Assembly (NCBI GenBank): GCA_947487895.1
Contig: CANKYF010000002.1
Location: 372,001 to 436,000, forward strand
Reading direction: 5' to 3'
DNA length: 64,000 nucleotides
DNA from: an uncultured Flavobacteriaceae bacterium
GTDB lineage: Bacteria; Bacteroidota; Bacteroidia; Flavobacteriales; Flavobacteriaceae
Shown one piece after another: positions 4,284 to 34,102 of this stretch. The notes under the pieces were generated by a model. That model had not been told where the DNA came from. It saw nothing but the letters and a program-made list of their open reading frames with translations, and did not search any database. Each line of letters opens with the position of its first letter. Position 1 is the stretch's first letter. Made by a program: the position numbers and the translations under genes.

Positions 4284-4289
4284 TTATTT

Positions 4290-11909: not shown

Positions 11910-12716
11910 TTAAGCAGCTCTTAATAATAGATTTTCAACCCATTCATATCCAGTAGTTTTCATACAAAATTTTACTGCAGATGAATACTCAGAGGTTGAA
12001 GACGCAAGAACTAATAATTCTTTCATTTGAGATGCTATTTTTTGCTTACGAGCCATACAAATATTAGTTCGTTGTAATTGAACAAGCTTCTCAGTAGATT
12101 TAATTAATAATATTGTTCTTGAATATTTATCTTTCCTTGAATCCTTCATTTCTTGTTTATTAAGATTCATCCTCCTTATTGTATATTCAGCTTGAATATA
12201 ATTTCTCTCTGTGTTAACCGTAGATTTTGGTGTTACAAGTCCCTCATTAGTAAAAGCTAACTTATCTGGGTCTTCTATTTCAGTAGGATCTAAAAACCTT
12301 ATATCTTCATTTTCCAAAGAATCAGTGGGTGCATTAGCCTTATTAGCGTTGACATGGAAATAGGCATTTTTTCTAATGTTTTCAGCAGGAGCAGAATATC
12401 TATAATTTAGCCATTCAAAAGCAAGCCACCAATAACCACCTTTATCATTACCATTTTCGTCAATGGCTTTTTTCTTAGGTCTAAAATGATCTACATGACA
12501 ATGGGCACTGTCGTTTTTAGATTCTGAGTACCAACATTTATTATGACTTAAAGCTCTTAAATGATCTTTTAGCTCAGTCCACATGTTTTGATTAGCATCA
12601 ATAATAACATCACGAGCAGCCTTATCAGCAGCTAGAGTGAGTTGAAGAGTTATAGCATCAGCTCGATCAATCCAATCTTGATCTGGTGGATTATTTTCTA
12701 AATCTATATATCTCAT
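11910..12716 (-). CDS. HNH endonuclease, PtuB/retron-type (TIGR02646-like)
   Basis: A 268-residue putative nuclease. The HNH/beta-beta-alpha core is C61-W-Y-S64, then HCHVDHFRPK (residues 72-81, Asp76-His77 being the catalytic pair), then WLAFEWLNYRYS (Asn104). The VDHFRPK and WLAFEW-N signatures match HNH nucleases of Septu (PtuB) and retron systems. The second Cys of the first zinc knuckle is Ser64, so metal binding may differ. It is the last gene of a four-gene operon with HsdM, HsdS and an ATPase, and its ATG overlaps the ATPase stop by four bases. I infer it is the DNA-cutting effector of this defence operon. Confidence 0.8.
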   Translation of the reverse strand: MRYIDLENNPPDQDWIDRADAITLQLTLAADKAARDVIIDANQNMWTELKDHLRALSHNKCWYSESKNDSAHCHVDHFRPKKKAIDENGNDKGGYWWLAFEWLNYRYSAPAENIRKNAYFHVNANKANAPTDSLENEDIRFLDPTEIEDPDKLAFTNEGLVTPKSTVNTERNYIQAEYTIRRMNLNKQEMKDSRKDKYSRTILLIKSTEKLVQLQRTNICMARKQKIASQMKELLVLASSTSEYSSAVKFCMKTTGYEWVENLLLRAA

Positions 12717-15921: not shown

Positions 15922-17342
15922 AAAAGCGTTTTTTTTATTTCGGATAAAAGATTTGCACTTTTTTGAAATGATGCATCAATTTTCACTAATAATTCTTCTG
16001 TTGTGTATACTTGTTCATTTTCAGAAACATGAGGGTTTTTAATATCTAAATTGAAATTTCTTTCTTTTATTTCATTTATGGAGACTTTCCAGGCAAATTC
16101 GTTCCTTTTACGATCTTTCCACCATTTCTTAATATCATCAAAATGCTTAATATTAATAGGTCTTGACCTACTAAAATTCTTTACATCTTTCGGATAAGGC
16201 ATTTCGTAATACCAAATTTCTTTAGTAGGTTTTCCTTTTATGAAAAACAATAGATTTGTATTAATTCCAGTGTAAGGATTGAAAACCCCTTTTGGCAAAC
16301 GTACTATGGTATGTAGGTTACATTTTGTTAATAATTCTTGTTTAATTCTTGCCTTAACACCTTCTCCAAATAAAGAACCGTCTGGAAGAACGACTGAAGC
16401 TCGCCCATTTTTCTTTAAGATTTTTATAATTAATGCTAAAAATAATTCGGCTGTTTCTTTAGTCCTGAATTTTTCGGGAAAGTTTTTCTCCGTATTATCT
16501 TCTTCTTGCCCTCCAAATGGTGGATTGGAAAGTACAATATTCACTTGATTTTTACTTTTCCAACTTTCATATGGTACAGTTAATAAATTACCTTTCGTAA
16601 TAGCTGGTTTTTCAATACCATGTAGAATTAAATTAGTTGTACATAAAAGGTGAGGTAATGGCTTCTTTTCTATTCCTCTAATAGAGTTTTGAATAATTCT
16701 AGATTTTTCATTAAATCCATTTTTACTTGACAAATTATCCAAGGTACAAGTCAAAAAACCTCCTGTACCACATGCAGGATCTAAGACACTTTCTCCAATT
16801 TGTGGTTCTATCATATCAACCATAAATTGAGTGACAGCTCTTGGGGTATAATATTCTCCAGATGAACCTGCACTTTGCAATTCTTTTAATATTGATTCAT
16901 AGATATCATTAAAGATATGCCTATCTTTATTTTTACTAGAAAAATCAATTTTATTTATTTCATTAATGACTTGACGGAACAAAGTTCCTTTCTTCATATA
17001 GTTATATGTATCATTAAAAACTGATTTCACAATCACAGATTGATCTGTATCGGTAGGTTCAATTGTTTTTAATATAGGAAATAATTCATCATTGATAAAA
17101 GTGATTAATTCATCTCCTGTTAACCCATCCTCATCTGCTGCCCAATTTTGCCACTTTAACTTTTCGGGCAATGGACTTTTGTATGTTTTTCTTGATTTTT
17201 TCCACTCTTCTTCTTTATCAGCAAATATTTTCATGAAAAGCATCCACACCATTTGAGAAATACGCTGCGCATCACCGTCAACTCCTTCATCTTTTCTCAT
17301 GATGTTTCTAATAGATCTTACTATTGATGTTACGTTACTCAT
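15918..17342 (-). CDS. hsdM: Type I restriction-modification DNA methyltransferase HsdM
   Basis: N6-adenine methyltransferase of 474 residues. The helical N-terminal HsdM domain contains MVWMLFMKIFADKEEEW, then SGEYYTPRAV, motif I DPACGTGGF (residues 188-196, SAM binding) and motif IV NPPF (273-276, catalytic). It should methylate the sequence read by HsdS and so mark self DNA. It is the first gene of the hsdM-hsdS-ATPase-HNH operon; a small XRE-type regulator gene lies 56 bases upstream on the same strand. No hsdR is present anywhere in the window. Confidence 0.93.
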   Translation of the reverse strand: MSNVTSIVRSIRNIMRKDEGVDGDAQRISQMVWMLFMKIFADKEEEWKKSRKTYKSPLPEKLKWQNWAADEDGLTGDELITFINDELFPILKTIEPTDTDQSVIVKSVFNDTYNYMKKGTLFRQVINEINKIDFSSKNKDRHIFNDIYESILKELQSAGSSGEYYTPRAVTQFMVDMIEPQIGESVLDPACGTGGFLTCTLDNLSSKNGFNEKSRIIQNSIRGIEKKPLPHLLCTTNLILHGIEKPAITKGNLLTVPYESWKSKNQVNIVLSNPPFGGQEEDNTEKNFPEKFRTKETAELFLALIIKILKKNGRASVVLPDGSLFGEGVKARIKQELLTKCNLHTIVRLPKGVFNPYTGINTNLLFFIKGKPTKEIWYYEMPYPKDVKNFSRSRPINIKHFDDIKKWWKDRKRNEFAWKVSINEIKERNFNLDIKNPHVSENEQVYTTEELLVKIDASFQKSANLLSEIKKTLL

Positions 17343-19202: not shown

Positions 19203-19220
19203 ATTTTTAAATGTTTATTA

Positions 19221-19260
19221 AACAAAGCCGCCAAATACTATTTTAAATGACGACTTTGTT
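19221..19260. promoter_or_regulatory. Imperfect inverted repeat upstream of HTH/excision operon
   Basis: AACAAAGCCG (19,221-19,230) and CGACTTTGTT (19,251-19,260) pair in 9 of 10 positions. A third AACAAAG half-site lies at 19,279. They sit 19-80 bases upstream of the HTH gene, where RteC or the HTH protein itself could bind. The rest of 19,203-19,485 shows no gene. Confidence 0.35.
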
Positions 19261-19485
19261 AAGATTTGACTTTCGTTCAACAAAGATGTTTTACTTTGAA
19301 TTGCTTTATTCACCATATCACCTTACCTCGGTGAAATTTTAACATTCTATTCTTTGTATCGTTTTGCTATTATATGTTGGTTAGTTAACCTTATACTAGG
19401 AATAAAATTGATCAAAAAATAGAATCGAGTTTGTATAAATAAAGAAACCACAGTAGTCCCCTACTCGGCTTTTTTATCAGGATAG

Positions 19486-20316
19486 TTACCTTTCAGATTT
19501 TTCTATTTCATGTATAAAACTCATGGAAAGTTCATCTAAAAATCGAGTTCTACTTTTCTTTCTAGATTTAATTTCAGAATGTATTTTATAAAAATCCCCC
19601 AAATCAAAATTAAAGAGTTTTTGAAATGCCATGACAATTTCTCTCTTATCTGTATTTCCATTATTGATGGCGCGACTATAATAAAGAGCATATATTAATT
19701 CGGTAAGCGCTGTTTTACTTGAGGTCCATTTTAAATTATACTGCTTGCCTAAGTTATCAATGTTTATTTTTTGTTCTTTCTTTACGAATCGATTTTCTAA
19801 GTATTTAATAAAACGCTTATAAGCAAGTAATTTGCCCAACAAAATATCATGCGAAGTATTAAACTCTATTTCTAAAGTGTAATCTTGTGTAGGGATAATT
19901 TTTAATTCATTATTATACGATCTCGTAAAATACCATGAATCTAAATGGTCATGATTTTGCTCTATATAATTAATAAAATCTAAATGTCTTGCGAAGAAGG
20001 TTTGTATTTTATGTTTTGATTTTGTGATGAATTTTTGCTGTTCTTTTTTTCCTATTTTGGGATAATGTGTTTCAAAACTATAGACCTCCAAATGATAAAT
20101 GAGTGTTTTTAAAGGTATTTGTTTAGTATTTTTAAAGAATTGAACTTCTTCATCTATAGAATTAAAGTTATTTTCAGAAACTACTTTTTTAAGGTCTAAA
20201 AGGACCTTTCTGCATAGTAAAATGACTTTTCGGGATTGTCGTATAGCATCATATTCAAATTGATCTATGTCTTGTAATTGTCTTTTAAATTCACTTATAA
20301 TTGAGAGAGTTTCCAT
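19486..20316 (-). CDS. rteC: RteC-type regulator of element excision
   Basis: A mostly helical protein of 276 residues matching RteC of Bacteroides conjugative transposons. YHLEVYSFETHYPKIGKKEQQ and FFARHLDFINYIEQNHDHLDSWYFTR are typical family segments. In CTnDOT, RteC activates the excision operon. Here it sits upstream of, and parallel to, an excisionase-like HTH gene, so the same role is likely. The ATG at 20,316 is preferred to an in-frame TTG at 20,337. The RteA/RteB two-component pair that drives rteC in CTnDOT is absent. The 258 bases upstream hold no gene I can see. Confidence 0.88.
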   Translation of the reverse strand: METLSIISEFKRQLQDIDQFEYDAIRQSRKVILLCRKVLLDLKKVVSENNFNSIDEEVQFFKNTKQIPLKTLIYHLEVYSFETHYPKIGKKEQQKFITKSKHKIQTFFARHLDFINYIEQNHDHLDSWYFTRSYNNELKIIPTQDYTLEIEFNTSHDILLGKLLAYKRFIKYLENRFVKKEQKINIDNLGKQYNLKWTSSKTALTELIYALYYSRAINNGNTDKREIVMAFQKLFNFDLGDFYKIHSEIKSRKKSRTRFLDELSMSFIHEIEKSER

Positions 20317-20573
20317 TTTATATTTTCCACTTAACAAATAAGGCTTTATATAGATTTGTCACGATTTGTTTAAACCTATTCTTTTTTGTTAAAATTCGTT
20401 ATAAAATGACGTTTTAAAAAGTAGTCTCTCCTTAAATTTATAAATATGAACCCTTGATTTATAAAATTCTATAGGAAAACTTCCTTTTTACATTTTAAAT
20501 AATAAAAAAATGGATAATACCAGAATAAGCCTGATTTACCCATCTTAATGTCTTAATAAATTTAATCTCTTCT

Positions 20574-22769
20574 TTATTTTAGTTGATAATCAGGATTACC
20601 TGTTTGCCAAAATACGTACGAAAAAATATTAGCCCAGTCTTCATATATTTTTGATGCATTGGAAGTATCTCCGTGACCAGTTTCAAAATCTGCTAATAAT
20701 AAAACTGGATTTTTAAGTTCTGTTTTATTTTGCAGTCTGGCAGCAAATTTACCTGGCATCCAAGGTTGAACTTGAGGGTCATTCATTCCAACTGTAAGAT
20801 AAACAGATGGATAAACAACATTATCCTTAATATTCAAATATGGATCCATGTTAATTAGAGATAAACACTCTAGAGAATCTTTTGCAGAACCAAACTCTTC
20901 AGAATTGGTACCAGCAGAACCTATAATTTCTCCGCGAAATGGGTTTAAATAACCATATTCAGATATAACAACCTTAAAAAGATCAGGACGTTCAATCATT
21001 GCCCGCCCTACTAAAATTGCTCCTGCGCTTGCACCATAAATGGCTATATTTTGATTTGAAGTAATCTTTTTATCGATCAAGTACTCTGTACATGAGATCA
21101 AATCTTTCCACGAATTTGGTTTTGTTAATTTTAGACCTCCTTTGTGCCAATTATCTCCTTTTTCTCCACCTCCTCTAACATGAGCAACACAAAACAAACC
21201 TCCTTTTCTAACAAAAGTCAACATTATTGATGAAAAATAAGGGCTTTCAATATCCCCATATGCTCCATATCCATAGATAAAAACAGGATTATTCCCATCT
21301 AATTTTAAATTTTTATTTCTAATGATTGATAGTGGAATTTCTTCTCCGTCATGCGATTTTACGAGAACTTCTTGTGCTATAATATTTTCAAATTCTGGGT
21401 AATTTACTTGTGACGAAAACCTATCTTTTTCGAAAGTTTTATTTTGAGTATTATAGGAGTACCTTACATAAGGACTTGTCCAGCCCTCAATTGATACCCA
21501 TAATTCATCTGAAAAGGCTGATTTATTATTCAAGTTAATTAAACCAGCTTGCTTAGGAGTATTAATTCTTTCTTCTTTTCCTTCGAAAACTCTATAAAGA
21601 TTGGCGTCAACACCATTTTTTAGGGTAGAATAATAAATACCATTACTAGTTATCTCAAAGTCATTTATTACTTCATTATATTTTTCTTTAGCGAGAGTAA
21701 CTGCTTTGTTAATATTTAGCTCGGAGCTTTTAATTGACATTATTTTTTTATTGTCAGCTCCTTTGGCAGATAGGAAAACAAAATGATTAGCAGTGAAATA
21801 TCCTTTAGTAGTTTGAATTTTATCTTCTTTTACATATAATTTTTTCCAACTGAGCTGACCTTTTTTGATATCCGAAATCTTTGCATAATATGCATTCCAA
21901 TAATTATCAACATCAGATAGATAACCGATTATATACTTGTCCTTATCAGAGTTTATTTTTGTAATAGGATAGATCTTTTTCGAGATATTTAAGTTTTCAC
22001 AAGTCTTATTACCGAAGATGTAATTTACCCTACCGTCATTATCTTCTATAAAATGTAATACCGATTGAGAATTTTCTTTAAATCGAGGGTCTGAAATATC
22101 AATATCAGAAAATCTTAAATACGTAAATCCACTATTATCAGGTAGCCAATTTACTCCCCAAAAATTAGAGGGCCAAGCATTGGTTAAAGTTTGAGGTAGA
22201 GCCTTTCTTTTTTCAACATCTAAGATAACCATTTCGGATAAATCTCTCCCTGAATATGAAAGCGCAATTACAATATATTTCCCATCCCAACTAGGCTTAA
22301 TATAGCTTATGTAATAATTATATCCTGTTTCTTTCTTAAAATCTTTGGGTGAATATAAAAGGTGTTCTTCTGAATGTATATTATCCTTAAAGTAAAGTTT
22401 GTAAAAACTATCATTAATATCCTTTTTTAAGAAAAAACATTTATTATTGGAAGTAACATTAATTCTTTTGAAAGAGCTTTTCCTTCTTTTACTTAGTTCA
22501 AGTAAGTCATTTAGCAAAGGCTCTCTTCCAGGTAACACCTCTAAGATATTTTCTGCATATTCACTTTGTTTTTTGTACCAATCAATATTAAGTGAGTCAT
22601 GATAATCTTCCATATCTCTGTACGGATCAATTACATTACGACCAAAATACTTTTCCGATGAATTATCAATACTGACTCTAGGTGGAGGGTTAAACTTTAA
22701 ATAATCATCTCCGCTTTTTTTGCAGCTCGATATAAATATCAGAAATACTAATATTATTTTTTCTCTCAT
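20574..22769 (-). CDS. Prolyl oligopeptidase (S9A) lipoprotein of the peptide cluster
   Basis: A 731-residue serine peptidase with a lipoprotein signal (FISSC, Cys16), an N-terminal beta-propeller (about residues 70-430) and an alpha/beta hydrolase domain. The catalytic triad can be placed at Ser581 (YGASAGA; most relatives have GGSNGG), Asp664 (VGMNDPQV) and His699 (ETGHGD). The family cuts short peptides after proline, and some members join peptide ends into rings. It follows the small precursor gene on the same strand, separated by a terminator-like hairpin. Its target may be the exported peptide, whose core has a single Pro. A general scavenging peptidase is the plain alternative. Confidence 0.87.
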   Translation of the reverse strand: MREKIILVFLIFISSCKKSGDDYLKFNPPPRVSIDNSSEKYFGRNVIDPYRDMEDYHDSLNIDWYKKQSEYAENILEVLPGREPLLNDLLELSKRRKSSFKRINVTSNNKCFFLKKDINDSFYKLYFKDNIHSEEHLLYSPKDFKKETGYNYYISYIKPSWDGKYIVIALSYSGRDLSEMVILDVEKRKALPQTLTNAWPSNFWGVNWLPDNSGFTYLRFSDIDISDPRFKENSQSVLHFIEDNDGRVNYIFGNKTCENLNISKKIYPITKINSDKDKYIIGYLSDVDNYWNAYYAKISDIKKGQLSWKKLYVKEDKIQTTKGYFTANHFVFLSAKGADNKKIMSIKSSELNINKAVTLAKEKYNEVINDFEITSNGIYYSTLKNGVDANLYRVFEGKEERINTPKQAGLINLNNKSAFSDELWVSIEGWTSPYVRYSYNTQNKTFEKDRFSSQVNYPEFENIIAQEVLVKSHDGEEIPLSIIRNKNLKLDGNNPVFIYGYGAYGDIESPYFSSIMLTFVRKGGLFCVAHVRGGGEKGDNWHKGGLKLTKPNSWKDLISCTEYLIDKKITSNQNIAIYGASAGAILVGRAMIERPDLFKVVISEYGYLNPFRGEIIGSAGTNSEEFGSAKDSLECLSLINMDPYLNIKDNVVYPSVYLTVGMNDPQVQPWMPGKFAARLQNKTELKNPVLLLADFETGHGDTSNASKIYEDWANIFSYVFWQTGNPDYQLK

Positions 22770-22772
22770 ATT

Positions 22773-22803
22773 TAAAAAAAGACCTCTTAAGATTAAGAGG
22801 TCT
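22773..22803 (-). terminator. Hairpin plus T-run between precursor and peptidase genes
   Basis: AGACCTCTTAA (22,780-22,790) pairs perfectly with TTAAGAGGTCT (22,793-22,803). On the minus strand the hairpin is followed by seven T. It stops most precursor transcripts only a few bases before the peptidase ATG. Partial read-through would give much precursor RNA and little peptidase RNA. Confidence 0.85.
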
Positions 22804-22816
22804 GATTAATTACAAA

Positions 22817-22975
22817 TTAATTACCACTACCTCCGCTACCTTCACTACCTGGACGTTTTATTCCTTTTCTTCCACCTCCATCATCATCGCCTCCACCAAA
22901 TATTACTTTAGAGTTTTCTAACTTAAACTTCCCAAATTTAGCAAAATTATTGCTAGCTAATGTCTTTGTTTTCAT
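22817..22975 (-). CDS. Double-glycine leader peptide precursor (bacteriocin/RiPP-like), 52 aa
   Basis: A 52-residue peptide read directly from the sequence. The leader begins MKTKTLASNNFAKFGKFKLE and ends NSKVIFGG (Gly27-Gly28). The core from residue 29 to 52 is GDDDGGGRKG then IKRPGSEGSGGSGN. The leader has the double-glycine end that C39 peptidase exporters cut, and such an exporter is encoded at 30,617-32,806. The core is Gly/Ser/Asp/Lys/Arg-rich with one Pro and no Cys, Thr or aromatic residue, so lanthionine or disulfide bridging is excluded. A good minus-strand promoter element lies 27 bases upstream and a strong terminator 14 bases downstream. It is likely an exported bioactive or signalling peptide. 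Confidence 0.8.
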   Translation of the reverse strand: MKTKTLASNNFAKFGKFKLENSKVIFGGGDDDGGGRKGIKRPGSEGSGGSGN

Positions 22976-23001: not shown

Positions 23002-23009
23002 CAAACATA
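23002..23009 (-). promoter_or_regulatory. Bacteroidota -7 promoter element of the precursor gene
   Basis: Minus-strand TATGTTTG fits the TAnnTTTG consensus, 27 bases before the precursor ATG. No TTTG -33 box is seen at the usual distance, suggesting activator dependence. An AT-rich element at 23,058-23,072 matches 14 of 15 bases at 24,788-24,802 upstream of the AraC-type regulator. Confidence 0.5.
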
Positions 23010-23079
23010 CATAAAAGGATTATTTTTTAGAATATAGATTTCTATCAGTTCGTCTAGATTTATAAATTTAGATTAAATT

Positions 23080-24765
23080 TTAAACATCATTTAATTGTTT
23101 AACAAAGTAAGAAGGATAAATTCCTGTTTTCTTATAAAATGCTTTTGAAAAAGACTCAGGGTTATTAAAACCAATATCTCTAGATATAGCTGAAATAGTA
23201 TAATTTCTAAACTTAGTATCATCTTTCAGTTTTTTAATTGCATAATCAACTCTTAAATTACTTAAGTAACTAGAAAAAGATTCGTTTTTGTAATGATTAA
23301 TTATTTTAGAAAGATATGCAGTATTAGTATTAAACATTTTTGAAACCTTGTTTAAAGATATATCATTATTTGTAAATTCATTTTCCAGTTCAAATTTGTT
23401 AAGCTTTTGTAGTATATCATCAATGACTCCTTGGGAAATATTCAGTTTTACTTTTTCTGATTCAGCTATTGAATCTTGTAATTTATTTGTTTTGTTAGAT
23501 TTATCATCGTTCAATATTTCTTCGAATCTTTTCCTGTATAATTTTTGTTTCTTATTCAACAAATAAATTATTATAGCAGAAACGATTAGAAGAATCAAAG
23601 ATATACTGATGATATTTGAATTTTTTTTGTTTTTTTGAGATAATTTTACTTCTAATTCATTTTTTTCTTTCTTTAATTTCGGGATTTCATAATTTTTAAT
23701 AACTGAAGTATTTAAATGTTCAAAATCGACATTTATAATACTATCAACGTATATTAATTTTTTGACACTTTCTAACAGTTCTTTTTCTAACCCTTTTTTA
23801 GAGTAATAATTAGAAGTCATTTTATAAACATCTCTTAAATCACTAAAAAAAAGTTTGGTGTCCTGATATATTGAATCTACTTTTTTTAGATAAAAAATAC
23901 TTTCATTATCCTTATTTAATTTTTGACAAATTCTTGCTTTATAAAAGAAGCATACTGCTTGATTAACATCAATCAACTCTTCTTCAACTTTATTTAAACT
24001 ATCCAAAGCTCTTAGATACTCGTGTTTATGATACAATATTGTGCCACTGTTTAACAAAAATTTCTCATACATTGTGTTATTTCCTGACAATAAGCTAGTC
24101 TTAATCCCTTTTTGAGTTGAAATTAAAGCCGAATCCAATAATGTCATTTCCATGTAATTTTTGGATATATCATCTAGAGCTATTAGATAATCCAATTTAT
24201 ATTTTTCTTTTAAAGAAGAGTTACTTTCGAAGTATAAAACTTGTTCACGAAATATATTTAAGGCATCTTTATAATTACCTGAATTATAATAAATCCCCCC
24301 CATAAATTGTTTTATTTCAATTTGTTGTTCTACATTTTTATTCTTTAGGGAATATTCAAAAGCTTTTAAATAGAACTCCAATGCTGCTTTATCATTTCCT
24401 TTCTCATAGTAATAATAGCCCTTTAGCATAAACCCTAGTGCTGGAAATTTATAGTTGTGATACTCTTTAGTGAGGTTTATTATACTATCGGAATACTTTA
24501 TGGCTTCTTCTATTTCAAGAAGATAGGACTTATATAAATAAGCATAAGCTAGATTAAACGTATCCGATTCAATCTTTGCTTTTTTGATCCATGTGTCAGC
24601 GTAAATTGAAGCTATTATTGTATCCTTCTCATTCTTAAAAAACCTATCCTCTAGATACTCATATGACTTACCTTGTAATGAATCTTTTCTGTAATCTTGG
24701 CTTTTAACAGAATCGAATATAAATACTAAAAAAAGTAAAGGAAGCCAGCGAGAGATTATATACAT
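23080..24765 (-). CDS. Membrane-anchored TPR-AraC transcriptional regulator
   Basis: A 561-residue regulator. A signal peptide (ends VKSQD) leads into about 340 residues of periplasmic tetratricopeptide repeats, for example FPALGFMLKGYYYYEKGNDK. Then come one membrane helix (near residues 378-400, NIISISLILLIVSAIIIYLL), a short coiled linker, and a cytoplasmic AraC-type double HTH ending FNNPESFSKAFYKKTGIYPS. This layout lets an external signal, perhaps a peptide, control transcription without a kinase. It lies directly upstream of the precursor gene on the same strand and is the obvious cluster regulator. Confidence 0.87.
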   Translation of the reverse strand: MYIISRWLPLLFLVFIFDSVKSQDYRKDSLQGKSYEYLEDRFFKNEKDTIIASIYADTWIKKAKIESDTFNLAYAYLYKSYLLEIEEAIKYSDSIINLTKEYHNYKFPALGFMLKGYYYYEKGNDKAALEFYLKAFEYSLKNKNVEQQIEIKQFMGGIYYNSGNYKDALNIFREQVLYFESNSSLKEKYKLDYLIALDDISKNYMEMTLLDSALISTQKGIKTSLLSGNNTMYEKFLLNSGTILYHKHEYLRALDSLNKVEEELIDVNQAVCFFYKARICQKLNKDNESIFYLKKVDSIYQDTKLFFSDLRDVYKMTSNYYSKKGLEKELLESVKKLIYVDSIINVDFEHLNTSVIKNYEIPKLKKEKNELEVKLSQKNKKNSNIISISLILLIVSAIIIYLLNKKQKLYRKRFEEILNDDKSNKTNKLQDSIAESEKVKLNISQGVIDDILQKLNKFELENEFTNNDISLNKVSKMFNTNTAYLSKIINHYKNESFSSYLSNLRVDYAIKKLKDDTKFRNYTISAISRDIGFNNPESFSKAFYKKTGIYPSYFVKQLNDV

Positions 24766-25335
24766 AACATTTTATTTGTAAGTCCAAATTTACAAATTTA
24801 GACCCAAAATTTATAAATATGGATTTGTTCTATTTGTACACCTCCTATATACATTGCAAATTTGACTTATGCTAAAATTTATTTACACATAAATTATTGA
24901 GGGGTTAGTCATTTATCAGGTGTAATAAAATTTACACCTGTTTTACTAAGTCTGACTTATCTAAATAATGAAAAGTATAATTAATATGATTTTTTATTGG
25001 TTTACCCTTATACATCTCTGAATAGAAAAACAGAGACAAATTTTCTCAAAGTGTTCACGTTTAAGGCGAAAGTTTCTCTTCTTAATATTAGAGTTATTTT
25101 CTCTAGTTTAAGATGATTTACATTCTAGACTTATGACCAAAATATGATGGTACATCTATGGATATAAAATCTAACAATTAAAAGAAAGGAGGCATTAATA
25201 ATAAGAAAGTAGAAACATAAAATAAAAAAAGGCAGAGTGCTAGTACACACTGCCATGAACTCCCAACAAGGTTGGATAACGTTCTAAAACAAAAAATTAA
25301 TATCAATTAATAATTTTATTCTAATAACAAAAGTA
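24766..25335. other. 570-bp divergent intergenic region of the peptide cluster
   Basis: It lies between the minus-strand regulator and the plus-strand cargo operon. Two adjacent minus-strand TAAATTTG elements (24,785-24,792 and 24,793-24,800) fit the -7 consensus for the regulator. I see no convincing protein gene, only open frames of up to 18 codons. An unusual AAAGGAGG stands at 25,186-25,193 without a following start. Confidence 0.5.
25231..25287. promoter_or_regulatory. Hairpin, mini-ORF and second hairpin before the cargo operon
   Basis: GGCAGAGTG and CACACTGCC form a 9-base stem with one mismatch (25,231-25,254). Read on the minus strand it is followed by seven T, like a terminator. 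Directly after it on the plus strand is ATG with ten codons (MNSQQGWITF) to TAA at 25,287, containing CCAAC-AAG-GTTGG. This could be an antisense terminator or a leader attenuator. Confidence 0.4.
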
Positions 25336-26040
25336 ATGAAAAAAAAGATTTCAATATTTTTTGGTTCAATCTCATTAGTAGTTGTATGTCTTGCCATGAT
25401 GTTCAGTTTAACTAGCAAGAGGCCTCCTAATTTTGAAGAGCCACCTATACCATGTGATGACCAAATTCGAGATAATATGGGTACAGCATTTTTACAAATA
25501 AATTTTGACCCAAGTGCACAAAATCCGTTTAGAAGAGCAGGGTATGAAAGTTATATCCCAAGTCCTGACATTAGGTTTGGTGATATAGATGGCACTGGTT
25601 TTGGGGTAAGTGACGTTGAATATGCATGCTCAGTAACACTTACATCTCCTCAATGCAGTGAATGGGTATGGACTGGATTTATGAGTGATCAAAATACAAC
25701 TAGTGGTGGAAAAATGACCATTCCTATGCCTCCATCTAATTATGATCTAAATGTTAAGGTTGAATATAGTGAGAAAGGTGAGTCCAATAAAGACCCCAAC
25801 TTTAATATTCCATTAAATGGGAATGATTTTACTTCTGTAGTATATACTTTCGAAATGACTTATTTAGGAGGATGGTCATCAAATATTCCACAGCCAATTT
25901 ATTTAAGACCTTCACATCAAATTTCAGGCTACTGTATGAATAACAGTTGTGGTAAAGGTAGTGTGAAACGTTCTGTTAGAGCCAAAGATTACGGAAATAT
26001 TAATGAGTATTTGGATGCTCATGGTTTATTTGGACATTAA
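25336..26040 (+). CDS. Exported protein of unknown function in the peptide cluster
   Basis: I do not recognise this family. The protein is 234 residues. A hydrophobic N-terminus (residues 7-25) acts as signal or anchor and is followed by the Pro-rich RPPNFEEPPIP. The remainder is rich in Gly, Ser and Asn with five cysteines in the exported part (CDDQ, EYACS, PQCSEW, GYCMNNSC), which could form disulfides. It is the first gene of the plus-strand cargo operon; the next gene starts 19 bases after its stop. Candidate roles are immunity, or a second secreted product. Confidence 0.75.
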   Translation: MKKKISIFFGSISLVVVCLAMMFSLTSKRPPNFEEPPIPCDDQIRDNMGTAFLQINFDPSAQNPFRRAGYESYIPSPDIRFGDIDGTGFGVSDVEYACSVTLTSPQCSEWVWTGFMSDQNTTSGGKMTIPMPPSNYDLNVKVEYSEKGESNKDPNFNIPLNGNDFTSVVYTFEMTYLGGWSSNIPQPIYLRPSHQISGYCMNNSCGKGSVKRSVRAKDYGNINEYLDAHGLFGH

Positions 26041-26059
26041 TAATAAAAACTTAAGAACA

Positions 26060-26833
26060 ATGAAGTTAAAAAATATACAAAAGTACTTTTACATAGGAAT
26101 GGCGATTTTTATTATGTCGTGTAGCCAAGATAAGAGTGATATTGAACTCGGTTCAGAAGAGCTAAAGGAAACAAACCTAAAATCATTTGTAGACTATCTA
26201 CAAATTTATTCGCAGCCCACAGAATTTGGTTCTATTTTAATACAGTCGAACGGTATTGCCTCAAGGCCAGATGATCCAAGTTCGGTTGTAATTTCTGAAA
26301 AAATATCGCCCGAAAAAGGAAAAACTATTCAGTTAATTGACGCTAAGAGAAATGAAATCAATCCATCTCAGAACGGAAAATCTACTGTTTCTTCTAAATC
26401 AGAATATGTTAATATTTTTGGGAATGATTTGTCTTATAGAGCTGTTGGAAGAACTAATAAATCAAGTACACAATCAATGTATGTACCACAATTAATTAAT
26501 TTGGAGCTTAGCTCAGAAGTTGGTAGAGCTGGTAGTGTGGTTTCTTGGAATGTAGATCAAAGCAATAATGAAGGGGTAGTATTATATGCCACTTATCATC
26601 CTTTACATCAAGCAGATTTGATGCTTGCTGAGCAAAATCAAGATAGAATTGTTAGAGGAATAGTTCTTCCTGATAATCAAGGTAGTTATACAATTACTAC
26701 AGAGGACTTAGAAAGATTTCCTAACAACTCTTATGTTGAAATAACAGTAGCCCGAGCAGCAACGACCACAGTGGATAAATCTACAATAAAGGCGGTGACA
26801 AAATCTTCTACTAGTATACAAGTTCAAAGGTAG
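26060..26833 (+). CDS. Lipoprotein of unknown function in the peptide cluster
   Basis: A 257-residue lipoprotein with signal IFIMSC (Cys21), then a polar Ser/Thr/Asn-rich body with a possible beta-sandwich end (SYTITTEDLERFPNNSYVEITVARAA). There is no family I can name. A longer frame opens at 26,003 inside the preceding gene, but ATG 26,060 gives a clean signal peptide and is chosen. Its position between an exported protein and an N-acyltransferase suggests a surface partner or immunity lipoprotein. Confidence 0.75.
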   Translation: MKLKNIQKYFYIGMAIFIMSCSQDKSDIELGSEELKETNLKSFVDYLQIYSQPTEFGSILIQSNGIASRPDDPSSVVISEKISPEKGKTIQLIDAKRNEINPSQNGKSTVSSKSEYVNIFGNDLSYRAVGRTNKSSTQSMYVPQLINLELSSEVGRAGSVVSWNVDQSNNEGVVLYATYHPLHQADLMLAEQNQDRIVRGIVLPDNQGSYTITTEDLERFPNNSYVEITVARAATTTVDKSTIKAVTKSSTSIQVQR

Positions 26834-26841
26834 ATATTTTG

Positions 26842-28317
26842 ATGGTCTTTAAAATAGCAAAAATAATGTCAAAGCAGCTAGTTTTTCTAGCTGCTTTGTT
26901 CAATCGTAACTTATTGTTACAGTTCATTGTAATGTTCTTAATATCTTTTATTTCATGGAATTATTTTGGAAGTGTATTTGTTTTTTATATCACTTATCTA
27001 GTAATAAGAATAGAAAAGCACATAAGTGAAGAAACAGGAGTATTTTTACTTGTTGGAAATCTTATAATGTATATCTCTGCTTGGCATTTTGGAGGACTCT
27101 TTTGGATGCTTGAAATAGATCAAGGTATTTATGGGCTTCTAACCAATATGCTATTATACCTTTTTCCTTTAGGAGTGTATATCTTTCTGAGGAAAAAAAG
27201 AATGATTGGCAAATGGGCATTTGTTTTCATCATTCTACTTTACGAATATTATCTCAATATTTCTGATTTTTCTTACCCTTGGATGACAATAGGGAATGTC
27301 TTTTCCAATCAACTTTATTTAATTGAATGGTATGAAATAACTGGTGTATTAGGAGGTAGTTTTTGGATACTCATTTTGGGAATGATTTGGGCAGGTAAAA
27401 GTAAATATAAAACACCTATTTTAATCTCTTTAGTTACTATTCCTATATCAATTTCTTTTTATATAAACCAAAGTCATACATATGAATTAAATGAGCCTGA
27501 TAAAAACGAAAGAATATTAACCTTTAATTTAGAATCTAAAGAAGGGTTAGTTGATGAAAGTGAATTGGCTTTTTACATAGCAAAAAGGGCTAAAGATAGT
27601 TTGATAGAGACAATATTAATACCTGAATTAACCTTTAGTGGTGTAGTTGAAAAAAAGATCAATAAAAAACTCTCAATTAAATATTTGAAAGGATTAACTA
27701 TTAATAATCCAAAAAAGAAAATTCTAGTAGGAACATCAGTTAATAAGGGAAATAGAGTAATAACTAATTCTTCTCTTTATCTTAACAATGGAGATATTTT
27801 ACAAAAAGTAAAAAAGAAGCTTGTACCGCTTAATGAATACTTACCTACGGGAATTTCAAAATATTTTAAAAAAACATCTTTTCATTTTAACGTACCTGAT
27901 GATACTGAAACAATAGTTAGTAATCATAATTTTTCACCTCTGATTTGCTATGAATCATTTTATAGTTTCTTTGTTGCAAGCCAAATCAGTAATGCAAGAG
28001 TAATGTATTTGCTATCTAGTGAAAAGTTCTTCAATCACTCTTATTTTGGAAGATTGCAATATGACAATATTATTAAATTGAGGGCTATAGAAAATAGACT
28101 TCCCTTAGTTAAAGCATCAAATCATGGTACATCTCTTGTAATCAATAAATATGGCAAGATTATTGATTCAAATAATACGGAGTTTTCTATATTTGATGTT
28201 AAGATTTATCCTCCAAAAAAAACTATCTACAACAGTTTTTCCCATAAAAGAATATTGTTGTTAATCGTTTTTTTATTGGGTATTCATATGATGCTTTATA
28301 AATTAAAAAAACAATGA
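26842..28317 (+). CDS. lnt: Apolipoprotein N-acyltransferase (Lnt-like)
   Basis: About 491 residues. Six or more membrane helices (to about residue 210) are followed by a periplasmic nitrilase-type domain. Catalytic residues can be placed at Glu262 (IPELTF), Lys326 (KKKLVPLNEYLP) and Cys369 (LICYES), with spacing as in Lnt. SYPWMTIGNVFSNQ matches the family's membrane part. The enzyme adds the third acyl chain to lipoproteins. A copy inside a peptide-export cargo is unexpected: it may modify cluster lipoproteins or the peptide, or replace a host Lnt that the peptide inhibits. ATG 26,842 is preferred to an in-frame TTG at 26,839. Confidence 0.85.
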   Translation: MVFKIAKIMSKQLVFLAALFNRNLLLQFIVMFLISFISWNYFGSVFVFYITYLVIRIEKHISEETGVFLLVGNLIMYISAWHFGGLFWMLEIDQGIYGLLTNMLLYLFPLGVYIFLRKKRMIGKWAFVFIILLYEYYLNISDFSYPWMTIGNVFSNQLYLIEWYEITGVLGGSFWILILGMIWAGKSKYKTPILISLVTIPISISFYINQSHTYELNEPDKNERILTFNLESKEGLVDESELAFYIAKRAKDSLIETILIPELTFSGVVEKKINKKLSIKYLKGLTINNPKKKILVGTSVNKGNRVITNSSLYLNNGDILQKVKKKLVPLNEYLPTGISKYFKKTSFHFNVPDDTETIVSNHNFSPLICYESFYSFFVASQISNARVMYLLSSEKFFNHSYFGRLQYDNIIKLRAIENRLPLVKASNHGTSLVINKYGKIIDSNNTEFSIFDVKIYPPKKTIYNSFSHKRILLLIVFLLGIHMMLYKLKKQ

Positions 28318-29171
28318 TGAGATTCATACTTGTATTAATTATTTTTTTGTTCATTGGTCAGAACTCGTTCGGTCAAAATAACAAAACAGAAATGGCTTTA
28401 TATAACATAGGTCTTGGTGGCTTTGTTAGTGGCATTGGAGCCCTAATTAATAAAAAACCAAATGATAAATTTGGAAAGACCTTCTTCAAGGCTTTTACTA
28501 AAGGAGCTTTTGGAGGGTATCTGGTTTATGAGAGTAAAAATCTTGTTGGGAAGATTCAAGAGAAAGAAAAATTGGAATATAGCTGGGCGGCAAAGGTTGT
28601 CAATTCCACAGGTATATCAATTATTGAAAATGCTTCACTAAACAAAGAGTTTTTAGAATCTTGGCATATGAACATTGGTTTTAACAGGCTTGAAGTTCAA
28701 ACAAGAGGGGACGTCAAGTTTAAATATAGAATAATGCCATTTTCTCTAATTGAAATGGCTCGAGCTGCGTACGGAAACAAATTTGAATTAAATAAGACAA
28801 TTAGGTCAGGTGAATTTATTTTTTCTGCTACCAACTTGACAAATGGCTCGAGAACTACCAAAGGAGTTAACTATACCAACTCAATTGTGTATGATAATGG
28901 TATCCTCAATTTATATGATGTAATTTCTCATGAAATAATTCATAGTTACCAATATTATGACTTCAACTTTGTAAACACTTATTTCAATAAAACTTTTACA
29001 AAACTGGAAAATAAGTCCAAATTTTTCAGAGGTTTAAGTTCAATTTTATATTATGATCTTAATGCACCTATTTTTAGAGGCATATATACTTTAGAAGACA
29101 TAAATAATAATGCTCCCTTTGATAACTTTTTTGAGAACGAAGCTGGGTTTTGGTCTAATACTTTAGACTAA
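28314..29171 (+). CDS. Exported HExxH protein, putative zinc metallopeptidase
   Basis: A 285-residue protein with a signal peptide (ends SFGQN) and a short hydrophobic Gly-rich segment near residues 30-45. HEIIH at residues 206-210 lies in DVISHEIIHSYQYYD, the active-site form of zincin peptidases. ENEAGFW near residue 276 could supply a third ligand. The remaining sequence is not one I recognise. Its start overlaps the lnt stop by four bases, so it is co-expressed with the acyltransferase. It could process the peptide or degrade a competitor's product. Confidence 0.65.
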   Translation: MMRFILVLIIFLFIGQNSFGQNNKTEMALYNIGLGGFVSGIGALINKKPNDKFGKTFFKAFTKGAFGGYLVYESKNLVGKIQEKEKLEYSWAAKVVNSTGISIIENASLNKEFLESWHMNIGFNRLEVQTRGDVKFKYRIMPFSLIEMARAAYGNKFELNKTIRSGEFIFSATNLTNGSRTTKGVNYTNSIVYDNGILNLYDVISHEIIHSYQYYDFNFVNTYFNKTFTKLENKSKFFRGLSSILYYDLNAPIFRGIYTLEDINNNAPFDNFFENEAGFWSNTLD

Positions 29172-29358
29172 AAGTTTTACATTATTTTCTAATAATATTT
29201 TAGAAATGATGAACTCAATAACCAAGGGAAAAGAGCTTTTTTACATAACAAAACCTGTGACTTTGATCCTTATAAAAAAATGGAACTCAAAATGATTTCT
29301 TACAATAATTGAAATGCATTCACTAATTTAACCTACTGAAGTAATTTGAGCTAAAATT

Positions 29359-30616: not shown

Positions 30617-32806
30617 ATGAAGAAATTCCCACATTATAATCAATATGATAATAAAGACTGTGGCCCTACCTGTCTAAAAATAATTGCTAAATATTACAAA
30701 AAGACAATATCACTTCAAGAGCTACGTGAATTAACTGAGACAACACGCTTGGGGAGCAGTTTAATGGGATTAAGTGAAGCTGCAGAACAAATAGGTTTCC
30801 GTTCTACCGCTGTAAAAATTTCATTGGAGCTATTGATGGAAGCTCCTTTACCTTGCATAGTACACTGGAATAAGAAACATTTTGTGGTGTTATACAAGAT
30901 CGAAAAAGATGTGTTTTACGTTTCAGACCCTGCACATGGACGTCTTAAATATTCTAAAGAGGAATTTTTAAAGTTCTGGATCGGCAATAACGCTAATGAC
31001 CAAACAGAAGAAGGCGTAGTATTGCTTTTAGAAACCACCCCTAAGTTTTATAGTCCAAACTATGAGGACAAAGAAAAAAGCCTAGGGTTTTCTTTTTTGT
31101 CTAAATATGTTTTAAAGTATAGAAAATTCATTTGGCAGCTAGTTATTGGACTTATTGCAGCTAGTGTTTTACAGCTTATCTTTCCTTTTCTAACACAAAG
31201 CATTGTAGATGTAGGTATAAAGAATCAAGACATCCATTTTATCTATTTGATCCTTTTTGCCCAACTCGCCTTATTTATTGGTAAAACAGCCATAGAAATT
31301 ATAAGAAGTTGGATTCTTTTACACTTAAGCACACGTATCAACATATCTTTAGTTTCAGACTTTTTCATCAAACTCATGAGCCTGCCCATAGCGTTTTTTG
31401 ATTCTCGAATGACTGGTGATATATTACAGCGAATTAACGACCACAAACGTATTGAACAAGTACTTACCACATCTTCTCTAAGCGTACTGTTTTCAATGGT
31501 AAATTTAATTGTATTTAGCTTTGTACTAGCTTTTTATAACTTACAAATTTTTGGGATTTTTATCGTTGGAAGCACACTATATTTCTTATGGATACTTATA
31601 TTTCTAAAAAAACGTGCCGATCTGGATTATAAACGATTTTCCGAAGTTAGCCAGGAACAAAGTAAAGTAATTGAGCTAATTAGCGGCATGCAGGAAATAA
31701 AACTCCACAATGCAGAAAAACAAAAACGATGGAGTTGGGAATTTATCCAAGCAAGACTATTTAAGGTCTCTATTGATGGTTTAAAACTAGAACAATATCA
31801 AAGTGTAGGGTCTGGTTTTATAAATGAATTAAAAAATATTTTAATTACAATTTTAGCAGCTAAGTTAGTTATAGATGGTAATATAACACTTGGTATGATG
31901 TTAGCCATAAGTTACATTGTTGGTCAGCTTAATGCTCCAATTGTTCAACTTATAGAATTTATAAAAGAGTTACAGGACGCTAAGATTTCTTTAGAACGTC
32001 TTTCTGAAATTCATGACAAAAAAGATGAAGAACACCCAAATAGTGAAAGTATACATGACATCACTAAAAACTCAAATTTCATACTAGACAAAGTATCATT
32101 TAGATATACGGGTTCTAACCAAAATGTATTACAACATTTAGATTTGGAAATCCCTTCAAATAAAATAACTGCTATTGTAGGTGTTAGCGGAAGTGGAAAA
32201 ACAACGTTAATGAAATTACTTCTAAAATTTTATGATCCGAATGAAGGTCAAATAATCATAGGAAATTATAATTTAAAAAATGTATCGCATAAAACTTGGA
32301 GAGATCACTGTGGTGTGGTAATGCAAGAAGGGTATATTTTTAGTGACTCCATAGCAAACAACATTGCTGTTGGAGAAGATTATATTGATAAAAAGAAGTT
32401 GGCCCATGCTGTAGATATAGCTAATATTAAAGGCTTTATAGAAAGTTTACCGCTATCTTATAATACAAAAATAGGAATGGAAGGAATCGGTTTAAGCACT
32501 GGTCAAAAGCAACGTCTTTTAATAGCAAGAGCTGTATATAAAAATCCTGATTTCTTATTTTTTGATGAAGCCACAAGTGCTTTGGATACCAATAACGAAA
32601 AAGTAATCATGGAGAAATTAAATGTGTTTTTCGAACATAAAACAGTGGTAGTTATTGCACATAGACTAAGTACTGTTAAAGATGCACATCAGATTGTTGT
32701 TTTAGACAAAGGGCTTATTGTAGAAGTTGGAAACCATAATGCTTTGGTTAAGCAAAAAGGACAGTATTATAACTTAGTTAAAAATCAATTGGAGTTAGGG
32801 AAATAA
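30617..32806 (+). CDS. Peptidase-containing ABC exporter (C39 family)
   Basis: A 729-residue bacteriocin/RiPP exporter. The N-terminal C39 cysteine peptidase has Gln9, Cys15 (KDCGPTC), His88 (NKKHFVVLY) and Asp104 (VSDPAHG), so it should cut double-glycine leaders. Six membrane helices follow (about 165-440), then an ABC domain with Walker A VGVSGSGKTT, signature LSTGQKQRL and Walker B DFLFFDEATSALD. It is the natural exporter for the 52-residue precursor at 22,817-22,975. The HlyD-type gene starts at the base after its stop. Confidence 0.93.
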   Translation: MKKFPHYNQYDNKDCGPTCLKIIAKYYKKTISLQELRELTETTRLGSSLMGLSEAAEQIGFRSTAVKISLELLMEAPLPCIVHWNKKHFVVLYKIEKDVFYVSDPAHGRLKYSKEEFLKFWIGNNANDQTEEGVVLLLETTPKFYSPNYEDKEKSLGFSFLSKYVLKYRKFIWQLVIGLIAASVLQLIFPFLTQSIVDVGIKNQDIHFIYLILFAQLALFIGKTAIEIIRSWILLHLSTRINISLVSDFFIKLMSLPIAFFDSRMTGDILQRINDHKRIEQVLTTSSLSVLFSMVNLIVFSFVLAFYNLQIFGIFIVGSTLYFLWILIFLKKRADLDYKRFSEVSQEQSKVIELISGMQEIKLHNAEKQKRWSWEFIQARLFKVSIDGLKLEQYQSVGSGFINELKNILITILAAKLVIDGNITLGMMLAISYIVGQLNAPIVQLIEFIKELQDAKISLERLSEIHDKKDEEHPNSESIHDITKNSNFILDKVSFRYTGSNQNVLQHLDLEIPSNKITAIVGVSGSGKTTLMKLLLKFYDPNEGQIIIGNYNLKNVSHKTWRDHCGVVMQEGYIFSDSIANNIAVGEDYIDKKKLAHAVDIANIKGFIESLPLSYNTKIGMEGIGLSTGQKQRLLIARAVYKNPDFLFFDEATSALDTNNEKVIMEKLNVFFEHKTVVVIAHRLSTVKDAHQIVVLDKGLIVEVGNHNALVKQKGQYYNLVKNQLELGK

Positions 32807-34102
32807 ATGGCAGATAATAGTTTAGATAATATAGAATTAAGGAGCGAAGAGGTACAAGATATACTCACTAAAGTACCCAATTGGATGATACGTTGGGGAA
32901 GCACTCTATTCTTAGTTTTAATTATCTTATTACTGCTTATTGCCTGGTTTGTTAAATACCCAGACATCATTCCCTCTGAAGCCCTTATAACAACAGAAGC
33001 TCCTCCCCAAAAAGAGTATGCTAAAATAACAGGAAAACTAAAGACCATTTTAGTTGAAGACAATGATAATGTAACAATAAATCAGCCATTAGCAGTTTTA
33101 GAAAATACAGCTAATTATAAAGATGTTTTTGCATTAAAATCAATTATTGATACCTTAAAAGTTGATACAAAATCGTTCAAATTTCCTTTTGACAGCCTGC
33201 CTGTACTATTTTTAGGCGATATAGATGCGCAATACGCTCTTTTTGAAAATAGTTATATTCAGTATAAACTGAATAAAGAACTACAACCTTTTTCCAATGA
33301 ATCTATTGCTAATAAAATTTCTATTTCTGAACTTAAAAGGCGATTAAAAAACTTAGAATCTCAAAAAGCGATTAGTAAAACAGAATCAGAGTTCAAAGCT
33401 AAAGACTTAAAACGAAACGAAACCCTCTTTAAAAAAGGCATCATTTCTGAACAGGATTATGAAAACAAACAAATGGATTATGCTAGAACCAAACGGAATT
33501 ATCAAAGTTTTGAAGCTTCTATTTCTCAAGTAAAAGAAAGCATAAGTAATGCCCACAAAAACTCCAGAGGTACAGAAATAAATAAGGTGAAAGAGGAAAT
33601 GACCTTACTTAAGAATGTTATTCAGTCTTTCAACCAAGTAAAAAAAGCCCTTAAGGATTGGGAGCAGCAATATGTATTGCAATCAAATATTAACGGTAAG
33701 GTGTCCTTTTTAAATTACTGGAACGAAAATCAAACCGTAAATCAAGGCGATTTGGTATTTACCATTATCCCTAGTGAAAGTTCTTCGTTTATTGCTAAAT
33801 TGAAAGCACCTGCACAAAATTCAGGAAAAATTAAAGAGGGACAACATGTGAATATAAAATTAGAAAACTATCCTGAAACTGAATTTGGCATGCTCAAGGG
33901 GACTGTTAAAAACATCTCCTTATTGCCCAATAAGGATGGGTTCTATGTTATTGATGTTACATTGCCCAAAAAACTCGTTACTACTTACAACAAAGAAATT
34001 AACTTCAAGCAGGAAATGAGAGGCACTGCTGAAATTATTACGGAAGATTTACGTTTGATAGAGCGTTTTTTTTACCAGTTTAGAAACATATATCAACGAT
34101 AA
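32807..34102 (+). CDS. HlyD-family membrane fusion protein
   Basis: A 431-residue adaptor for the adjacent C39 exporter. One N-terminal membrane helix (residues about 31-50, STLFLVLIILLLLIAWFV) is followed by a lipoyl half (KLKTILVEDNDNVTINQPLAVL), a long coiled-coil hairpin (about 150-290), the second lipoyl half (LQSNINGKVSFLNY) and a beta-barrel. It bridges the exporter to an outer-membrane TolC-type channel not encoded in the cluster. Zero spacing to the exporter gene implies coupled translation. Confidence 0.9.
   Translation: MADNSLDNIELRSEEVQDILTKVPNWMIRWGSTLFLVLIILLLLIAWFVKYPDIIPSEALITTEAPPQKEYAKITGKLKTILVEDNDNVTINQPLAVLENTANYKDVFALKSIIDTLKVDTKSFKFPFDSLPVLFLGDIDAQYALFENSYIQYKLNKELQPFSNESIANKISISELKRRLKNLESQKAISKTESEFKAKDLKRNETLFKKGIISEQDYENKQMDYARTKRNYQSFEASISQVKESISNAHKNSRGTEINKVKEEMTLLKNVIQSFNQVKKALKDWEQQYVLQSNINGKVSFLNYWNENQTVNQGDLVFTIIPSESSSFIAKLKAPAQNSGKIKEGQHVNIKLENYPETEFGMLKGTVKNISLLPNKDGFYVIDVTLPKKLVTTYNKEINFKQEMRGTAEIITEDLRLIERFFYQFRNIYQR

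Follow-up and report, generated by a model that had tools for sequence, protein, structure and literature searches.

A double-glycine peptide gene between a TPR-AraC regulator and a secreted peptidase: a candidate signalling cassette before rteC in a flavobacterial conjugative element

What is the role of a 52-codon open reading frame (ORF) that lies between a regulator gene and a peptidase gene in a flavobacterial conjugative element? The DNA in question is a stretch of 64,000 nucleotides (hereafter the window) from an uncultured marine Flavobacteriaceae bacterium (contig CANKYF010000002.1, positions 372,001 to 436,000), and the ORF encodes a peptide with a double-glycine (GG) leader. A preliminary description regarded it as the product gene of a new-looking peptide cluster served by a C39-type exporter. 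Comparison with related genomes leads us to a different reading, in which the product of the ORF is probably a pheromone, the inducer in a signalling cassette that regulates itself and has cassette-specific outputs; judging from sequence comparison, we give this reading a probability of roughly 0.6.

That the ORF is a genuine GG precursor gene is confirmed. The minus strand codes for MKTKTLASNNFAKFGKFKLENSKVIFGG/GDDDGGGRKGIKRPGSEGSGGSGN, 52 amino acids (aa) without Cys and with a hydrophilic core, and the leader ending in VIFGG is as first described. The TAnnTTTG element and the hairpin that had been assigned to the gene also exist; TATGTTTG matches the consensus of the Bacteroidota -7 element. 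However, TAnnTTTG is only mildly enriched, occurring in 15 of 50 homologous upstream regions compared with 8.2 in shuffled sequences (maximum of 200 shuffles, 15), and the terminator scan performed at chance level (6 found, 5.2 expected), so neither alone proves the gene. A terminator 3′ of the peptide gene was also considered as a family feature and discarded, a comparable hairpin being present in just 4 of 49 related loci. Under the GG filter the ORF is the sole one of its kind in the window, and a looser listing (ORFs of at least 22 aa between genes, 17-40 kb) adds one more, of 32 aa. This additional ORF at 19218-19316 (-) terminates in KIVFGGFV and resembles a GG leader whose core has been lost or is out of frame.

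The evidence that carries the assignment is recurrence. In a scan based on S9 peptidase alignment, in which the best 80 of 528 relatives were kept, the regulator gene stands beside the peptidase gene in 52 loci, and a GG ORF lies between them in 48 of these 52. Among the 28 loci without the regulator, some of which have little upstream DNA, a GG ORF was found in one (L138, with the peptidase gene at the contig edge), and 445 control upstream regions yielded 12, two of which are regulator cassettes themselves. The nearest relative of the window's cassette among these 80 is locus L100, with 47% identity in the regulator and 55% in the peptidase. An S9 protein search in 197 relatives gave the same picture: a clade of 15 genomes (E<1e-97) is separate from generic S9 peptidases (best 2.6e-72), nine of its members have an adjoining TPR-AraC gene and eight of these nine also a GG ORF in between, whereas no GG ORF was seen in the 6 genomes without the regulator. 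Conservation of the ORF in related clusters had been named at the outset as a test of the gene, and the gene passes it because the ORF is conserved in many cassettes of relatives. The opposite view, that of a spurious small ORF, could appeal to the window copy having no Pfam or NCBIfam model at E<=1 and to a direct homology search with the 52-aa protein finding no relative in its own genome's contigs, but position, leader and upstream site are kept in many species, which already contradicts it and leaves it with a negligible probability.

Searches that start from the peptide converge on the same arrangement. The direct search in the 197 relatives returned 20 weak foreign matches, and two of six opened loci were true cassettes. 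A family profile (A3, 47 precursors) found a single copy in the window's own genome and 31 matches in 17 genomes of the 197, of which the 15 best and one weaker one were opened. Fourteen of the 15 best matches stand beside a TPR-AraC gene; four of the 15 (the window, G005, G122 and G154) are rows of the profile and thus fit by construction, and excluding them the count is 10 of 11. Six of the 14 regulator-linked matches are accompanied by an S9 and six by an S8 peptidase (assigned by Pfam; the copy in G032 is shortened), and the remaining two show no peptidase in the fetched stretch (G083:C4) or lie at a contig end (G016). The weaker match in G032:C1 (L202) likewise follows a regulator. Among 395 Bacteroidota genomes, the precursor profile gave matches in 14, and all seven that were opened of the 18 listed consist of regulator, GG ORF and S9 (3) or S8 (4) peptidase, one of the seven (L210) being identical to a profile row. 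Leader similarity as a family definition was rejected, because one of the 15 best matches (G135) is a precursor beside a LanC-like gene with no regulator in the fetched stretch. The TPR-AraC regulator alone was rejected as a cassette marker as well, since it has matches in 71 of the 197 genomes and is hence not specific; the first two foreign regulator loci opened (an array in G083, and G079) had no adjoining GG ORF, the cassettes of G083 lying elsewhere. Locus L023 (G083:C1:1054557-1063130) carries tandem TPR-AraC regulators, with no GG ORF noticed in the fetched stretch.

The third partner is fixed in position and interchangeable in family. The window's peptidase combines the propeller and hydrolase domains of prolyl oligopeptidases (S9A architecture; Peptidase_S9 2.5e-36, S9_N 5.9e-24), its nearest solved chain is a prolyl oligopeptidase (5.5e-64), and the peptide-processing enzymes PCY1 and OphP were also matched. 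By motif, S581 and D664 of the putative catalytic residues are invariant in eight aligned sequences and the His is present in seven of the eight. Among the S9 proteins of 48 related loci, simple patterns recognised a hydrophobic stretch at the start of 42, and 13 had a lipobox-like motif. Further cassettes carry an S15 (L129) or S8 (L146) peptidase in the same place; S9, S8 and S15 are all serine peptidases. Precursor and peptidase genes are close, within 50 nt in many loci. At L189 (G032:C6) a short duplicate of the C39 exporter start lies between the GG peptide and the shortened S8 gene, as if from recombination, with the exporter after S8. Plasmids gave no match at the DNA level, and phages gave four records with partial S9 matches of 27-29% identity.

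Across the family, leaders are conserved and cores variable (identity 0.41 and 0.26, respectively). The majority-rule leader consensus is MKK...KKLSLKKLQxxKIxNxxxIxGG, and the residue two places before GG is I, L or V in all 49 unique precursors, as is characteristic of C39-type GG leaders. Cores are hydrophilic, with a mean grand average of hydropathy (GRAVY) of -0.97, and 24 of the 49 unique ones have no Cys. A basic stretch followed by Pro occurs in the cores of L100, L106, L107, L109, L110 and L112 as in the window (RKGIKRP), a pattern that was written after seeing these six loci near the window. The leader type itself is not new: PMC7268733 describes an LxLxKx5L leader ending in GG, linked to C39, for class I lanthipeptides of Bacteroidetes. 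The description as new-looking applies to the cassette and not to the leader type.

The regulator gene lies 104 nt upstream of the peptide gene on the same strand. Its C-terminal DNA-binding domain is matched by HTH_18 (2.7e-12) while TPR models of Pfam stay below cut-off, and the AlphaFold2 model has a mean pLDDT of 87.8. From sequence and model, the TPR domain is predicted to be periplasmic. Bacterial fold matches to this domain include NprR, Rap-Phr, RapF and RapI, with a pLS20 Rap-Phr structure listed, and bacterial profile matches include RapJ (8e-11), RapF (1e-7) and NprR (1e-6).

A word search over 50 upstream regions brought out TTTATAAA, which 29 of the 50 loci and 7 of 469 controls have at a distance of 65-95 nt upstream of the peptide start, and the dyad ATTNATNAAT (N being complementary) stands 60-100 nt before the start, exactly, in 37 of the 50 discovery loci and in 2 of 469 controls. 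Since the motif was derived from the same 50 loci, the pattern was applied to 24 loci from other routes, where, at 55-105 nt, 9 had it exactly and 11 when near-dyads are included. Several of the misses (L002, L212, L215, L216) show long dyads with other letters, and symmetry rather than one word may therefore be what is conserved; widening the pattern post hoc gave 13 of 19 loci as against 34 of 469 controls, or 16 of 24 including five loci omitted from that run. Complementarity at arm positions 2, 4, 5 and 7 exceeds that of column shuffles in the discovery set, and it is kept while letters change. Within the window, sequences with at most three mismatches to the 20-bp dyad are found only at 23053-23072 and, as a three-mismatch copy, at 24783-24802 before the regulator gene, with 0.08 expected. 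In the whole genome the scan gave six other rows, compared with four for a reversed control. The dyad also marks other GG ORFs found mechanically, being present within 280 nt upstream of 10 of the 13 that lie within 500 nt of a regulator (one of the 10 being the peptide of the S15 cassette) and of 4 of the 39 farther away; the cores of these ORFs differ in kind, being for example hydrophobic at L140 and Cys-rich at L141.

A second type of site consists of tandem half-sites. A count of TTTATAAA pairs in 1.57 Mb, with a limit of 60 bp between the two sites, gave 11 spaced by 21 bp, 11 by 22 bp and 8 by any other distance; half-sites of AraC are spaced about 21 bp. Twenty-one of the 22 pairs with 21-22 bp were placed relative to ORFs of at least 100 aa (all except that of L128), and none lies inside such an ORF. 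Among the nearest genes downstream are those for the regulator, a GLPGLI protein, outer membrane proteins of TonB type, RteC (3) and LanB (3); for several pairs there is no ORF of at least 100 aa nearby. In the window, pairs 21 bp apart with at most one mismatch in each site occur only before the regulator gene (ATTTACAAAT and ATTTATAAAT) and before rteC (TTTATAAAT). A second half-site 21 or 22 bp from the dyad of the peptide gene was not seen.

RteC is known as a regulator of excision in CTnDOT, and in the window its gene is accompanied by TraG, TraM and coupling-protein domains (RteC itself being PF09357). In three relatives on similar elements (L100, L112, L113), too, rteC follows the cassette and is preceded by two sites with a 21-bp spacing, at 158 and 137 nt before the rteC ORF in L100 and at 163 and 142 nt in both L112 and L113, the second L113 site being ATTCATAAAT. 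The positions of these sites suggest that the cassette may control rteC. L100 combines this arrangement with three GG precursors with hydrophobic, bacteriocin-like cores at 3894-6029 (-), between its C39 and HlyD genes.

As to export, the peptide is a plausible C39 substrate and the idea of C39 export holds to that extent. An exporter search of the genome gave 21 matches, of which the window's own is the only one that includes the C39 part, the others starting at residue 158 or later, and it thus appears to be the sole such exporter found in the genome. Nine GG cassettes of the first genome set were searched for a C39 gene, and 8 have one at a distance of up to 10 kb (the exception is G122; the count includes G091, with S8, and a G176 copy split over two frames), versus none of 6 S9-clade loci without the cassette. 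A survey of 49 neighbourhoods (48 loci and the window, with families named after representatives) found split LanB in 25, C39 in 22, grasp-with-spasm enzymes in 9 and none of the three in 12; in the window, C39 and HlyD were the only such genes seen. Several related loci contain a second, different GG precursor, with a hydrophobic or Cys-rich core, near the exporter or behind operator-like sites. At L116 (18781-20637 and 15733-16054), small GG precursors (MKNLKK...GG and similar) stand in rows; their cores contain Cys and differ from one another.

The reading we favour, that of an inducing peptide, would work as follows. The precursor would be cut behind GG and exported by the C39 exporter with the HlyD adaptor, as motif, gene proximity and the single such exporter suggest. 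The hydrophilic core of about 24 residues may then be trimmed or cleared by the secreted S9 peptidase (S8 or S15 in other cassettes), and the peptide or a fragment of it would bind, in the periplasm, the TPR domain of the membrane-spanning regulator, whose AraC domain presumably acts on the dyads of the peptide gene and on the tandem 21-22-bp sites before output genes; the sites themselves are conserved in sequence. Outputs would differ by cassette, comprising other GG precursors and LanB operons elsewhere and, in the window, probably transfer of the integrative and conjugative element (ICE): given the sites before regulator and rteC, the transfer programme is probably coupled through the cassette to how densely cells with the element are present. 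A bolder version, to which we give somewhat less than even odds, makes the cassette a Gram-negative counterpart of the RRNPP quorum-sensing systems, a portable density sensor. In it, a peptide that has been exported and trimmed by the protease would be read by the TPR domain in the periplasm and its message passed across the membrane to the AraC domain, so that the element would count its carriers before excising. Graspetide, LanB and class II bacteriocin clusters would be the outputs of such a sensor, and in ICEs the transfer regulator rteC.

Several observations weigh against a signalling role. The filter used detects no GG ORF at 4 of the 52 regulator-S9 loci, and the small ORF of G039 lacks GG. 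The C39 exporter is not constant: at >450 bits it accompanies 16 of 42 cassettes of full length, and by clustering 22 of 49, and no ATTTATAAAT precedes the window's C39 operon. The top fold and profile matches of the TPR domain are eukaryotic proteins (LGN, TONSOKU) and TPR folds are generic; since these score better, the Rap and NprR matches are a lead and not proof. Covariation between core and TPR domain is weak (partial correlation 0.24 versus 0.13 for the AraC domain; reached in 0 of 500 permutations, with relatedness not removed). The tested form of the dyad is missing in 12 of the 50 discovery loci and 13 of the 24 others, and the regulator is tied to the dyads by position only. The rteC of L110 (inverted) has no 21-bp pair, nor has G116, where rteC is on the other side of the regulator and the sites are about 31 bp apart. 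Finally, the model lacks a route for the 24-residue peptide back into the periplasm.

The strongest competing explanation makes the peptide an effector in its own right, above all in LanB-bearing loci: a secreted, ribosomally synthesized and post-translationally modified peptide (RiPP) or an unmodified bacteriocin-like peptide. Its leader would be cut by C39 and the remainder trimmed by a LanP-like S9, S8 or S15 peptidase, unless that peptidase serves self-protection, and the regulator would control production only. Split LanB near 25 of the 49 cassettes (20 of these 25 being from Chryseobacterium), directly behind the S9 gene in 19 of 49, means that the peptide might indeed be a modified RiPP there. 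The leader points the same way, being of the class I LanA type noted above and matched at E<=1 by lant_leader_L1a in 16 (best 6.5e-05) and by TIGR04149 in 8 (best 4.3e-06) of 47 members, and a class III lanthipeptide family with its own prolyl oligopeptidase-type protease is described in PMC7268733. Yet a LanC-like protein passes the motif filter in only 1 of 49 neighbourhoods, Ser/Thr content is not higher in the cores of LanB loci (0.141 versus 0.160), and the cores are hydrophilic. The window peptide is matched by none of these models; it lacks both the cut-off score and, on its contig, a radical SAM partner for the modified RiPPs of TIGR04149, and the combination of LanB and LanC with a Cys/Ser/Thr core that defines class I lanthipeptides is lacking, its core being Cys-free and LanC not found. 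The statement that standard RiPP enzymes are lacking thus stands in part: LanC was not found in the genome (the control being positive in 1 of 14 genomes) and radical SAM proteins not on the window's contig (C2), whereas the LanB search of the genome is uninformative because its control was silent, and YcaO and ATP-grasp enzymes were not searched for. With second, effector-like GG precursors present at some of these loci, the hydrophilic peptide resembles an inducer more than an effector, and we consider the effector reading unlikely.

More improbable still is that the peptide acts on the secreted peptidase, as its cognate inhibitor or as a modulator that resembles a substrate, with the regulator sensing something else. 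The replacing peptidases are all of serine type and their genes are often less than 50 nt from the precursor gene, and serine proteases are the targets of microviridins, inhibitors with precursors that typically contain a GG motif (PMC8939145); but cores vary even within one peptidase family, and at L185 and L202, where 1.5 kb was fetched, peptide and regulator occur but no peptidase was seen. The initial proposal had omitted the fixed partners of the ORF, a TPR-AraC regulator and a secreted peptidase; C39 is not constant, and “the product gene” is probably not the right name for the ORF.

Table 1. Positions of the cassette, its candidate sites and associated genes in the window.
Feature	Position	Strand	Basis
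GG-leader peptide precursor, 52 aa	22817..22975	-	recurrence across related loci; cleavage site inferred from GG
Leader, 28 aa, ends VIFGG	22975-22892	-	
Core of 24 aa, predicted	22891-22820	-	cleavage site inferred from GG
Stop codon of precursor	22819-22817	-	
TATGTTTG, TAnnTTTG, candidate -7 element of peptide gene	23002..23009	-	motif match
Terminator-like hairpin, 10-bp stem, between peptide and peptidase genes	22780..22803	-	terminator scan
20-bp dyad TCTAAATTTATAAATCTAGA, candidate operator of peptide gene	23053..23072	.	conserved upstream dyad
Regulator, 561 aa: N-terminal hydrophobic helix, TPR domain ~30-347, membrane helix, AraC-type HTH ~441-561	23080..24765	-	Pfam, AlphaFold2 model
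Tandem ATTTACAAAT / ATTTATAAAT, 21 bp apart (24788/24809), upstream of regulator gene	24788..24818	.	pair scan
Prolyl-oligopeptidase-like enzyme of family S9; lipoprotein predicted from ISSC, judged by eye	20574..22769	-	Pfam, structure match
Pair of TTTATAAAT in tandem at 21-bp spacing, in the gap between rteC and the peptidase gene	20436..20465	.	0/100 shuffles
RteC homologue behind peptidase gene, proposed output	19486..20337	-	Pfam RteC 2e-58
C39-peptidase ABC exporter, proposed exporter	30617..32806	+	Pfam Peptidase_C39 4.5e-37
HlyD-type adaptor	32807..34102	+	family match

Other genes of the window were followed through the best 80 loci. The run before the exporter, at 25336-30588 (+), encodes two proteins whose starts look like export signals, an acyltransferase resembling Lnt, a further protein that looks exported and a ChaN/Tiki-like lipoprotein. 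The genes at 25336, 26003, 26839, 28314 and 34165 have no homologue among ORFs of at least 120 aa in these loci and are therefore not counted as parts of the cassette; the gene at 29359 (ChaN/Tiki-like, last of the run) is the one with a homologue. Farther off, at 11910-17342 (-), HsdM and HsdS are followed by PtuA (PADLOC, 640 bits) and PtuB (274 bits) in overlapping order, a Septu pair in place of HsdR, which was not recognised nearby by eye.

Were the inducing-peptide reading true, flavobacteria would have a testable peptide code, many of their TPR-AraC regulators would gain a role, silent RiPP clusters could be switched on by way of it, and conjugation would be under density-dependent control through RteC. 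In open-access literature, outside of which most subscription papers lie, neither a Bacteroidota peptide pheromone system with TPR sensors nor this cassette was found; PMC10352776 reports TPR-domain genes in two Bacteroidales RiPP clusters and mentions pheromone binding by such domains elsewhere.

Among known systems, RRNPP (Rap-Phr, NprR, PlcR, PrgX), some of whose pairs are borne on elements and govern conjugation, resembles the cassette in having a small exported propeptide gene adjoining the regulator gene, a peptidase-matured signal and a place on conjugative elements (PMC10075063). RRNPP receptors, described from Firmicutes, are intracellular proteins of 250-500 aa with a mostly Sec-exported propeptide (same source), unlike the 561-aa regulator with two helices, whose TPR domain is predicted to be periplasmic and joined through the membrane to an AraC domain, and unlike a propeptide with a GG leader and the cassette's own peptidase. 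The cassette is not classed here as an RRNPP system. Bacteroidetes class I lanthipeptide precursors share with the cassette the common leader, GG and C39, with split LanB near many relatives (PMC7268733); unlike them it often has Cys-free cores, rarely a LanC-like neighbour, and its own TPR-AraC regulator and peptidase. Inducing peptides with GG leaders are also found in the class II bacteriocin and competence loci of Gram-positives, where GG leader and C39 export are shared with bacteriocins and a small inducer gene lies by its regulator, as here. Such loci hold a hydrophilic GG peptide beside the regulator with effector GG peptides and a shared exporter elsewhere, which the architecture of the cassette resembles. 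Gram-positive GG inducers are sensed by a histidine kinase and response regulator, in place of which the cassette has a one-component TPR-AraC protein. ICEBs1 takes its census through an element-encoded peptide and TPR protein, RapI-PhrI, and CTnDOT is governed by an RteC control circuit; with a peptide cassette directly before rteC, the window would join the two.
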